This document shows, one piece after another, positions 20,285 through 34,258 of a stretch of 45,869 bases of DNA; positions within the stretch are counted from its first letter, which is position 1; every line of letters begins with the position of its first letter. A model generated the notes under the pieces. The model made no database searches. It was not told where the DNA came from and saw only the letters and a program-made list of their open reading frames with translations. The DNA lies in contig JANXBF010000008.1 of the NCBI GenBank assembly GCA_025057615.1, positions 1-45,869 on the forward strand, given 5' to 3'. The position numbers and the translations under genes are program-made. Origin of the DNA: Candidatus Calescibacterium sp. (lineage in GTDB: Bacteria > DRYD01).

Positions 20285-21100
20285 TTGCATGAAAACAATT
20301 ACTTAGCAATCATTTCATATATAGGAACTAATTATAGTGGTTGGCAAAAACAAAAAGAGGATCGGCTGACTGTACAAGAGATAGTTACAAAAACATTTGA
20401 AAGCTTACTAAATACTAAAATAGAGAAGGTTAGTTATACTGGAAGAACTGATAAGGGAGTAAGTGCTTTATTTCAGTATTTTAATTTCTATATTAAAGAA
20501 AGGATAAATCCAGCTTTTTACATTGATATTGTCAAGAAAGCGAATATGGCCTTGCCTTCTGATATTTTGGTCCTTGATTTTAAGAATGTTGATAATTCTT
20601 TCAGTAGTAGATATAATGTTAAGTATAAGACATATTTGTATAAGATTATTTTTTGTGATGATGAAAAAATAGTTATAGATAAATATGGTTTATATAATTA
20701 TTTATTAATGAAATCATATTGTAAAGATTATGTTGTTTCTAAGCTTAATGATTTTATTGTGTTTTTTAATGGATTGAGAGATTATTCAAGTTACCATAGG
20801 CCAGAGAAGGGGGTTGCTAAAAATACTGTTTTGGATTTATCTTTGGTTTATTTCATTTACGATTATCCTGAGTTTTGGGTATTGACTTTTGAATTCAAAG
20901 CTGCTTACTTTTTGAGAAACATGATAAGGAAGATTATGGGTATGTTTGTTGCACTTTTGGAGGGTAAGGTTGACATGGATTATATTCGTGACAGTTTTGA
21001 TAATCCTGATCCATCGAAAGGTAAATTTGTTTCTTCTCCTAAACCATTGGTTTTATATAGTGTCAAATATGACCGCTGGCTGTATAAGGGAGCGGAATAG
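20285..21100 (+). CDS. truA: tRNA pseudouridine(38-40) synthase TruA
   Basis: The 271-residue protein starts with the TruA pattern AIISYIGTNYSGWQKQ and carries the catalytic motif GRTDKGVSAL with the nucleophilic Asp near residue 59. The C-terminal ends of the motif blocks (EFKAAYFLRNMIRKIMG, residues about 200-217) are also typical. TruA modifies uridines 38-40 in the anticodon arm of tRNAs, including leucine tRNAs. The start is taken as TTG 20285 because the next ATG is out of frame, and only a weak AGAGG lies upstream. It follows the M48 gene by 26 bases and precedes the D-aminoacylase by 25 bases, in one operon. Confidence 0.92.
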   Translation: MHENNYLAIISYIGTNYSGWQKQKEDRLTVQEIVTKTFESLLNTKIEKVSYTGRTDKGVSALFQYFNFYIKERINPAFYIDIVKKANMALPSDILVLDFKNVDNSFSSRYNVKYKTYLYKIIFCDDEKIVIDKYGLYNYLLMKSYCKDYVVSKLNDFIVFFNGLRDYSSYHRPEKGVAKNTVLDLSLVYFIYDYPEFWVLTFEFKAAYFLRNMIRKIMGMFVALLEGKVDMDYIRDSFDNPDPSKGKFVSSPKPLVLYSVKYDRWLYKGAE

Positions 21101-21125
21101 AAATACCCTCAGCCAAATAAGGAAA

Positions 21126-22685
21126 ATGAAGACTATATTGAAAAATGGTTATATTGTTGATGGTAATAGGGGTTCACTTATCAGAAGGGGATCAGTAGTT
21201 ATTGAGGGTGACAAAATAGTTGATATAATTGATAGTTATTCTGATAATGATGGTTTACAGGATTGTGAGGTTGTTGATATAGAGGGTTTATATGTTTGTC
21301 CGGGGTTTATAGACGTCCATAGTCACAGTGATTTAACTATTATTGCTCATCCTGAATCAGAGAGTGCAATTTCACAGGGTGTTACTACTGTTGTTTCTGG
21401 TAATTGTGGGTTTTCTGTTTGTCCTGTAGATAAAACTTTGGCTAATGTTTTAACGGAAGCTAAGTCTTATGGGATAGACGATATAAGTTGGCGTAGTGTT
21501 AGACAGTATTTGGATTTTATTCGGGGTTTGCCTATTGTTGTTAATTATGCTTATTTGGTTGGTCATGGACAGATTAGGGCTGAGGTTATGGGATATTCTA
21601 ATAGGTTGGCTAATGAAGATGAAATTCGGCAAATGAAATATGAAGTTGAAAAAGCTTTGGATGAGGGAGCTATTGGGCTATCCTTGGGTTTGATTTATAT
21701 TCCTGGTCGATTTTCTAATCTCGATGAGCTTGTGGAATTGTCCAAGGTTGTTAGTTTTAAGGGTAAGATAGTTACCAATCATATGAGGTCTGAGAGTTCA
21801 CATCTCTTGGAAGCTATTGATGAGAGTATTGATATATCAAGGTTAGCTGATGTCAACTTTGAGATTTCTCATCTAAAGGCTGCTGGGACAGGTAGGGGTA
21901 AAGCCGAAAGTGCTTGTAAAAAGATAATTAAAGCTATAGGTGAGGGAGTCAGAATTTCTGCAGATCAGTATCCTTATACTGCTTCTAATACTGGTTTATC
22001 TCAGGTTTTACCACCTCAATATTTGGAAGGTTCTATTGAGGAAATAATAAGAAAGATAACTGATGATCCTATTAAAGTTGCTCAGGATATAGAGAGTTAT
22101 CCTCATACTCCTTGGGATAAGATTCTCATTTCTGAGGCTTATAATCCTAAGCTAGCTAAATATTTGGGTATGTCTATAAGAGATATATCGATGGATTTGG
22201 GTTTACCAGAGGCTCTAACTGTAATTGAGCTTATGAAAATGGAGGAATATGATTTGGGTGCTATTTATTTTCTTATGGATCAGGATGAGGTTGATTACAT
22301 AGCCACGCAGGATTTCGTTATGGTTGCCAGTGATAGTGCTATTAGGAATTGTAGTAGTAACGCTTTTCCACATCCACGGACTTTTGGAACATTTACAAAG
22401 TTTATATCCTATTATGTAAAGGAAAGAAAATTATTAACTTTAAGTGAGGCTATATATAAAATGACTGGTTTTCCGGCTTCTAAATTCGGGATTGTAAATA
22501 GGGGGTTTATAAAGAGAGGATATTTTGCGGACTTGGTTATTTTTGATTTTGATAAAATTGTTGATAATGCCAGTTATGTATCTCCTAAAATTTTATCTGA
22601 TGGTATAGAGTTTGTATTTGTAAATGGGAAGATGGTTTATAAAGATAAAAAGGTTGTGGATTATGCTGGTAGAGTTTTAGCTTAG
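21126..22685 (+). CDS. N-acyl-D-amino-acid deacylase (D-aminoacylase) family amidohydrolase
   Basis: This 519-residue amidohydrolase has the complete D-aminoacylase set: H65 and H67 in DVHSHSD, the metal-bridging Cys94 in GNCGFS, a His in NHMRSE, a His in EISHLKAAG, and the catalytic Asp in ASDSAIRN. A C-terminal beta-sandwich closes the domain (residues ~460-515, RGFIKRGYFADLVIFD). Such enzymes release D-amino acids from N-acyl forms, for instance during peptidoglycan or modified-peptide scavenging. Some relatives act on other amides. The start is ATG 21126, with AAGG three to seven bases upstream. A longer upstream frame overlapping truA is not supported by a start signal. Confidence 0.85.
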   Translation: MKTILKNGYIVDGNRGSLIRRGSVVIEGDKIVDIIDSYSDNDGLQDCEVVDIEGLYVCPGFIDVHSHSDLTIIAHPESESAISQGVTTVVSGNCGFSVCPVDKTLANVLTEAKSYGIDDISWRSVRQYLDFIRGLPIVVNYAYLVGHGQIRAEVMGYSNRLANEDEIRQMKYEVEKALDEGAIGLSLGLIYIPGRFSNLDELVELSKVVSFKGKIVTNHMRSESSHLLEAIDESIDISRLADVNFEISHLKAAGTGRGKAESACKKIIKAIGEGVRISADQYPYTASNTGLSQVLPPQYLEGSIEEIIRKITDDPIKVAQDIESYPHTPWDKILISEAYNPKLAKYLGMSIRDISMDLGLPEALTVIELMKMEEYDLGAIYFLMDQDEVDYIATQDFVMVASDSAIRNCSSNAFPHPRTFGTFTKFISYYVKERKLLTLSEAIYKMTGFPASKFGIVNRGFIKRGYFADLVIFDFDKIVDNASYVSPKILSDGIEFVFVNGKMVYKDKKVVDYAGRVLA

Positions 22686-33171: not shown

Positions 33172-33552
33172 ATGGCTTATAAGAAAAAGAAAAAGATAAA
33201 GAAGGTTGGTTCAACAGGTGTTGCTCATATACATTCTACTTTTAATAACACTATAATAACTATAACTGATGAGAATGGGAACACTATAAGTTGGTCTTCT
33301 GGTGGTAATGTGGGTTATAAGGGTACGAAGAAGAGTACTCCATTTGCTGCACAACTTGCTGCTAGGCAGGCAGCGGAGAAGGCTATTCAGCAGGGATTAA
33401 AAGAGGTTAAGGTTATTGTAAAGGGTCCAGGTATGGGCAGGGAGTCTGCTATCAGGGCTCTAAGAGCTGCTGGATTGGAGATTACTGATATTAAAGATGC
33501 CACTCCTATACCACATAATGGATGTAGGCCTCCTTCAAGGAGAAGAGTTTAA
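33172..33552 (+). CDS. rpsK: 30S ribosomal protein uS11 (RpsK)
   Basis: This is a full-length uS11 (126 residues), part of the small-subunit platform near the mRNA exit. Conserved blocks are [38 protein letters not shown] and the C-terminal [19 protein letters not shown] strong AGGAGG site precedes the ATG. In most bacteria rpsM lies directly upstream and rpsD downstream. Here rpsM is replaced by a small membrane protein gene, so the conserved cluster is broken on this side. A structured 67-base leader separates it from rpsD. Confidence 0.97.
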
Positions 33553-33606
33553 TATCCGCTTGCTGGAGATATAGCGGTATAGAAATTATCCAGCCCCAAA
33601 AAAGGG
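33553..33606 (+). promoter_or_regulatory. Candidate pseudoknot/SD-masking leader of rpsD (S4 autoregulation?)
   Basis: Four arms lie in pseudoknot order. CCGCT (33556-33560) pairs with AGCGG (33573-33577), extendable by three pairs past a bulged T. GCTGGA (33562-33567) pairs with TCCAGC (33589-33594). The loops are 1, 5 and up to 11 bases, which is sterically possible for an H-type fold, though the two helices could also be alternative hairpins. Just downstream, CCCC (33594-33597) can pair with GGG (33604-33606), which overlaps the rpsD ribosome-binding region. S4 is a known translational autoregulator that binds a pseudoknot in E. coli and a leader in Bacillus. Assignment here is inference from structure and place. 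Confidence 0.5.
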
Positions 33607-33619
33607 AAGAAAGAAAAAT

Positions 33620-34258
33620 ATGGGTAGATATATAGGTCCCAAATGTAAATTGTGTAGAAGGGAAGGAATAAAATTATACTTAAAAGGAGAAAAGTGTTTT
33701 ACTGACAAGTGTCCTTTGGAAAAGAGGAATTATCCTCCGGGACAACATGGGTTTGTTAAGAGGAGACCCAAATTAACGACTTTTGGTGTTAGATTAAGAG
33801 AAAAGCAGAAAGTTAGAAGAATCTATGGTGTTAGTGAACAGATGTTCAGGAAGTATTTTGCTGAGGCCAAAAGATTGGCAAGGTTGGGTAAAGGTTTTAC
33901 AGGGCAAAACCTTATGAAAATTTTGGAAAGAAGGCTTGATAATGTTTTATACAGATCAGGGATTGCAGTCTCAAGATTTCAAGCAAGACAGATGATATCT
34001 CATGGTTTTGTTTTTGTTAACGATATTAATGTTGATATTCCATCTTATTTGGTAAAGATGAATGATGTTATTAAGTTTAAGCCCAAGGTTTTGAATATTG
34101 TTAAGGAACATTTGGAAAATGCTAAGAATTCTTTTATACCTAATTGGTTGAGTGTTGATTTTAATAATTTAACTATAAAGGTATTGAGAGAACCTGAGAG
34201 AAATGATGTTGAGTATCCAATAGAGGATAACTTGATTGTTGAGTTTTATTCAAGGTAG
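33620..34258 (+). CDS. rpsD: 30S ribosomal protein uS4 (RpsD)
   Basis: uS4 nucleates 30S assembly and in many bacteria represses its own operon. The 212-residue protein begins MGRYIGPKCKLCRREG and keeps four cysteines at 9, 12, 26 and 31, the zinc-binding C+ form. The S4 RNA-binding domain (about 100-165, LERRLDNVLYRSGIAVSRFQ, then QMISHGFVFVND) is intact. The ribosome site is a modest AAGGGAAG in a possible hairpin. The gene lies between rpsK and rpoA as in the usual cluster. Confidence 0.97.
   Translation: MGRYIGPKCKLCRREGIKLYLKGEKCFTDKCPLEKRNYPPGQHGFVKRRPKLTTFGVRLREKQKVRRIYGVSEQMFRKYFAEAKRLARLGKGFTGQNLMKILERRLDNVLYRSGIAVSRFQARQMISHGFVFVNDINVDIPSYLVKMNDVIKFKPKVLNIVKEHLENAKNSFIPNWLSVDFNNLTIKVLREPERNDVEYPIEDNLIVEFYSR

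Follow-up and report, generated by a model that had tools for sequence, protein, structure and literature searches.

The gap between rpsK and rpsD in a genome of Candidatus Calescibacterium sp. contains the sequence of a compact RNA fold, and this locus raises the question of whether the fold is a leader through which ribosomal protein S4 controls its own synthesis or an element with a more general role. The window, i.e., the whole stretch of 45,869 nucleotides that was analyzed, is a contig (G000:C88) of a 1.40-Mb draft genome. An initial annotation had described two interleaved pairs of arms, CCGCT/AGCGG and GCTGGA/TCCAGC, in this gap, which runs from the end of rpsK at 33552 to the start of rpsD at 33620, and we found all the arms exactly where it had placed them. 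The parts of the locus are as follows.

33172..33552, + strand: rpsK (S11), the upstream gene, with its own Shine-Dalgarno (SD) sequence AGGAGGU; named from its translation, no Pfam run
33556..33560, + strand: 5' arm of stem S1, CCGCU, seen in the sequence; the CCGC/GCGG core is conserved in 49 aligned copies
33562..33567, + strand: 5' arm of stem S2, GCUGGA; each locus is complementary to its own partner at nearly all loci despite differing sequence
33573..33577, + strand: 3' arm of S1, AGCGG, from the sequence and the 49-copy alignment
33578..33588, + strand: conserved A-rich loop L3, UAUAGAAAUUA, from the alignment; family consensus WAUANAAAN
33589..33594, + strand: 3' arm of S2, UCCAGC, from the sequence, the rpsD relatives and the own-pair test
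33595..33606, + strand: optional hairpin P3, CCC-AAAAAA-GGG, immediately 3' of S2, from compensatory variation in rpsD orthologs
33607..33619, + strand: unstructured A-rich spacer of 13 nt to the rpsD AUG, without an SD of its own
33620..34258, + strand: rpsD (S4), the downstream gene (Pfam PF00163, PF01479)

Interleaved in this way, S1 and S2 form an H-type pseudoknot. Of 300 dinucleotide shuffles of the rpsD leader (100 nt), one gave an equally strong pseudoknot, as did 5 of the 1832 100-mers of the window. The evidence from the window sequence alone is thus modest, whereas the comparison with relatives is decisive. The SD duplex energy of rpsD is -5.9 kcal/mol, compared to -12.5 for rpsK and -13.8 for rpoA. 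Between 30637 and 35212, rpsK-rpsD-rpoA is preceded by a dxs-like gene and an unknown ORF and not by rpsM; rplQ lies on a separate contig (G000:C44), so the alpha operon is split in this genome.

Our sample of the phylum consisted of seven genomes: four belong to g1, the genus of the window (G000-G003), two to the sister genus g2 (G004 and G005) and one to another family (G006). The family f1 comprises g1 and g2, i.e., six genomes with a completeness of 71-90%. The pseudoknot was present before rpsD in all six f1 genomes, each of which has rpsD; S1 was kept as CCGC/GCGG and compensatory changes were observed elsewhere. The two genera differ in S2, which reads GCUGG(A)/(U)CCAGC in the g1 genomes and GCAAGAG(A)/(U)CUCUUGC in those of g2, and the third hairpin occurred within g1 as CCC/GGG, CCCUU/AAGGG or CCUUGU/ACAAGG. 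A cmscan of the window locus and of five rpsD relatives against Rfam 15 gave no relevant match, including to the S4 leader models.

The same architecture was found at many other loci. The element can be written CCGCY–S2a–RGCGG–WAUANAAAN–S2b, with a conserved S1, a short L1, a variable but complementary S2 and an A-rich L3, which measures 8-12 nt in most copies. Searches with S1 only (CCGCTTN{7,17}GCGG) yielded 11-21 matches in each f1 genome, the backward control giving 0-1, and the strict pattern including L3 (CCGCN{6,22}GCGGWATANAA) yielded 12-29 per f1 genome with a control of 0. The strict pattern had no match in G006, and counts across 283 genomes of other phyla stayed at the control level, the look-alikes inspected among the matches listed for the top-count genomes yielding no case to follow up. 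With a covariance model of S1 and L3, the count was 18-39 per f1 genome at E<=10, chance matches possibly among them. Rfam searches of 20 further loci (E<=1) produced no match to the element or to a riboswitch class, only a weak CRISPR repeat elsewhere. By these comparisons, the rpsD knot belongs to a cis-acting RNA element that occurs in many copies, apparently undescribed before and, as far as sampled, confined to one bacterial family, its carriers being six incomplete genomes from two genera.

The 102 distinct strict copies that we read all have a same-strand ORF start codon within tens of nucleotides downstream, and the element precedes at least 49 gene families. Pfam confirmed among the genes behind copies those of ribosomal proteins S4, S2, S15, L5, L7/L12, L17, L31 and L32, as well as ribosome recycling factor, trigger factor, SSB, RecA, ACP, GAPDH, LytB/IspH, CutA1, H+-PPase, an Asn/Asp-type aminoacyl-tRNA synthetase, an RpoZ-like protein, Csm2 and further genes; for malate dehydrogenase and alanyl-tRNA synthetase, the names rest on translation only. 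One copy stands before csm2 (type III-A CRISPR; G000:C28), so the genes behind the element are not all housekeeping genes. A second copy lies in the window itself:

21073..21115, + strand: second copy of the element, S1 CCGC/GCGG, S2 GGCUG-(UAUA)-AGGG/CCCU-CAGCC
21126..22682, + strand: amidohydrolase/hydantoinase-like ORF served by this copy (Pfam PF07969, PF01979)

The ORF at 21126 has an SD energy of -2.3 kcal/mol, and an orthologous copy is present in G003. Between 21073 and 21126, this copy shares sequence with the 3' end of the gene before it, which is truA-like by translation; the frame of that gene reads through S1 and stops at a TAG in L3, so that the sequence is both coding and structured.

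This range of genes bears directly on the proposal that S4 is the specific ligand. S4 is a known autoregulator (PMC10931766) and the element stands before rpsD in all six genomes; however, the same element precedes many unrelated gene families that share no common ligand and bears no similarity to the Rfam S4 leaders, which makes an S4-specific autoregulatory leader very improbable. S4 may still bind the rpsD copy as well. The position directly before rpsD, proposed as a different location, has precedents, since S4 r-leaders are already predicted as hairpins before rpsD-rpoA-rplQ in Bacteroidia and Flavobacteria, with further ones in Firmicutes, Clostridia and Fusobacteriales (PMC7247131). The suggestion of a possibly new leader class holds insofar as a covarying pseudoknot without an Rfam match is present, but not in the sense of a leader specific to S4. 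The S4 leaders, i.e., that of the E. coli alpha operon (RF00140), itself a pseudoknot, and the r-leaders, resemble the element as structured RNAs before a gene set including rpsD; the element differs in that it is not limited to S4-operon genes, matches none of their covariance models and replaces the SD.

We then considered whether S2 pairs at each locus. Among 49 gene-family representatives, the S2 arms scored a mean of 16.9 with their own partner, compared to a mean of 9.3 and a maximum of 10.8 in 300 permutations of the partners; S2 was picked as the best helix per locus, a choice for which the permutation test accounts. The first four pairs of S1 are fixed by how the copies were collected, and the fifth pair varied over the 49 aligned copies (UA 28, CG 8, UG 7, GC 1). 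One copy found by the model has CUGCC/GGCAG as its S1. Many g2 copies carry an extra helix that pairs the sequence 3-5 nt upstream of CCGC with the loop after S2a through differing complementary sequences (TTTAGCGTTCTT/AAGAACGCTAAA, AGGTTAGCCT/AGGCTAACCT, TTAGGTGCCT/AGGTACCTAA), and other g2 copies have hairpins in the loop after S2a. At two loci (L304 and L310), the loop between S2a and the 3' arm of S1 takes one or two inserted hairpins, with S1, S2 and L3 intact. Before recA in G003, next to a start that has an SD, a TCCGC...GCGGA sequence without a clear S2 looks like a degraded trace of the element.

About 16 near-identical copies with an extra helix P0 and a hairpin CAAAAGTGTATA..TATACACTTTTG stand before different genes in G004, which suggests, from sequence likeness, recent dispersal by whatever route. 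These copies lend some weight to the idea of a dispersed repeat or an mRNA-processing element (REP/ERIC-like, an RNase target or a stabilizer) without a direct role in initiation, as does the ability of pseudoknots to protect RNA ends. ERIC and REP are likewise multi-copy and often intergenic. Their copies are alike over the whole length, whereas most copies here share only S1 and L3, the G004 group being the exception. Moreover, per-locus covariation with a differing but complementary S2, sense orientation, a fixed distance to the AUG and SD replacement (see below) would not be expected of a decaying repeat, and we consider this explanation improbable.

For a comparison of the same genes in both states, one chimeric query was used to find the orthologs of 18 motif genes, and those of recA and rplE were found separately. 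The anti-SD duplex energy was computed over -24 to -3, the anti-SD tail being assumed canonical (GAUCACCUCCUUUCU) because strong SDs occur elsewhere in these genomes. The orthologs without the element were all at or below -7 kcal/mol (49/49), with a median of -12.4. By contrast, the median was -4.3 kcal/mol for the orthologs with the element in the same families, -4.2 for all strict copies and -2.7 for shuffled leaders. The SD was weaker with the element in 20/20 families (Wilcoxon p=1.9e-6; Mann-Whitney p=2e-12); copies of one gene across genomes are not independent, but the family-level test is. A further 32 copies from the model search, outside the ortholog test, had a median SD energy of -1.9 kcal/mol. 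This exchange was also seen between close relatives: within g1, the element and a weak SD occur together before rpsO in G001 alone and before alaS in G002 alone, and recA leaders have the element and no SD in g2 but an SD in g1. Start codons were assigned by homology; misplaced starts do not explain the result, because orthologs begin at matching protein positions whether or not they have the element. The ortholog comparison was substituted for a first test on 4-nt match counts, which gave 48% vs 54% in window ORFs, whose start calls were crude. A usable SD accompanies the element in approximately 30% of the strict copies, so that at some loci the element does not act alone. Overall, as read from these leaders, the element replaces the SD at the same genes.

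The distance to the start codon was also constrained. In SD-less g1 copies, the last helix ends 10-15 nt from the start codon (10th-90th percentile; median 12.5), compared to a median spacer of 19 nt in SD-bearing g1 copies (p=2.5e-8); part of the SD difference is geometric, in that an SD does not fit into a short spacer. The spacer of SD-less g2 copies is longer (14-21 nt, median 19). P3 is present in 21 of 100 scored copies, and in copies that have it, the end of P3 lies 12-17 nt from the AUG and S2 then lies 26-42 nt away. Since these copies keep the spacing from P3, it is the final helix, be it S2 or P3, whose distance to the AUG is constrained. A third pairing, CCCC/GGG, had been read as a mask over the rpsD SD. 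The hairpin CCC-AAAAAA-GGG exists, but its 3' arm conserves no SD across the hairpin-bearing copies and the element goes with SD loss, so that SD masking was rejected as a general feature; judged by its spacing, the third hairpin at rpsD is a spacer helix.

Taken together, these results lead us to propose, with a probability of about 0.6, that the element is a structured, SD-independent translation-initiation element, its initiation role being what we infer from placement and SD exchange. The pseudoknot would stand in for the SD helix, with its last helix at a set distance from the AUG. Through its S1/L3 face, the folded RNA might dock on the 30S platform at its mRNA exit side, either by itself or via a factor, and the docked RNA would then position the AUG for the 30S subunit. 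The conserved pairing of S2 offers comparative support for the fold itself mattering. A pseudoknot this close to the AUG could equally have the opposite effect, i.e., repression. In another scheme, a metabolite or a lineage-specific RNA-binding protein reads S1/L3 and switches the translation of a housekeeping regulon on or off; a strict S1 and L3 with a free S2 is the pattern of ligand-binding RNAs, and many targets are growth-related. However, the gene families share no pathway, an SD would be expected to remain as the target of a repressing switch but is lost, and at genes including rpsO, alaS and mdh, species of one genus differ in whether a copy is present. We regard such a global riboswitch or protein-bound leader as unlikely, though less so than the other alternatives. 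The preQ1-like riboswitches are also small H-type pseudoknots with an A-rich L3 near a start codon; the element differs by its diverse genes, its lack of an Rfam match and the absence of an SD inside S2, most copies having no SD at all.

The position of upstream genes was examined with respect to translational coupling or insulation, in which the knot would keep the downstream start shut until a terminating upstream ribosome opens it. Among 83 scored copies, 78 have an upstream same-strand gene, and its stop lies 0-12 nt before CCGC in 36 of these 78. Most g1 copies closely follow a same-strand gene, with a stop usually a few nucleotides from CCGC, and at 21073 in the window, copy and upstream gene overlap, as coupling would predict. 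In g2, however, the upstream stop is often 30-110 nt away or absent within 120 nt, and the copies are still SD-less. In addition, tandem placement is uninformative because most genes in the window's genome are co-directional, and coupling leaves the SD loss unexplained; it appears improbable, somewhat less likely than a riboswitch and slightly more likely than a dispersed repeat. A readthrough or frameshift pseudoknot acting after the upstream stop was rejected, since the stop may lie anywhere between a point within the knot and one over 50 nt ahead of it.

The initiation reading raises the question of what the ribosome would use to bind the fold. Ribosomal protein bS1 usually assists leaders that are structured or poor in SD, and it is known to bind pseudoknots (PMC10931766). 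A PF00575 search found one or two S1-domain proteins per f1 genome, the matches lying in separate reading frames with one apiece, and the one that we read in G000 was PNPase-like. By contrast, a 360-aa protein with four S1 domains was found in G006, which lacks the element. The f1 family thus appears, from its predicted proteins, to be without bS1; the genomes are 71-90% complete, but all six agree. Recruitment by bS1 through the pseudoknot is accordingly disfavoured. It seems somewhat better than an even bet that a fold-based native initiation signal, seen by the ribosome or by a lineage-specific factor, repeatedly replaced the SD in this apparently bS1-less lineage.

The dicistrovirus IGR IRES is sometimes presented as a structured initiator in bacteria. 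It shares with the element a translation start from folded intergenic RNA, but its activity in E. coli depends on bS1 and an SD-like element and does not need the pseudoknots (PMC9458429), whereas the S2 pairing of the element is conserved and no bS1 was found in f1. The E. coli rpsO pseudoknot (Marzi 2007, as cited in PMC10931766) is another H-type pseudoknot beside a start site, with possible contact to the 30S platform. As described in that citation, it serves a single gene, is repressed by S15 and has its SD inside the knot; the element serves many genes, has no SD and places its last helix 10-15 nt upstream of the AUG.

The element carries a warning, in that lineage-specific leader motifs by ribosomal protein genes need not be autoregulators of ribosomal proteins. 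Textbooks describe bacterial starts that use an SD, starts that are leaderless, and starts that are AU-rich or assisted by bS1. A signal that is based on a fold and trades places with the SD at the same genes would add a further kind to this list, and the element offers a compact part for testing SD-independent expression. Such a signal would make directly testable a long-standing question, whether bacterial ribosomes can be recruited by RNA structure in the manner of viral IRESs in eukaryotes. The comparison of these genomes suggests that these bacteria can begin protein synthesis from folded RNA.
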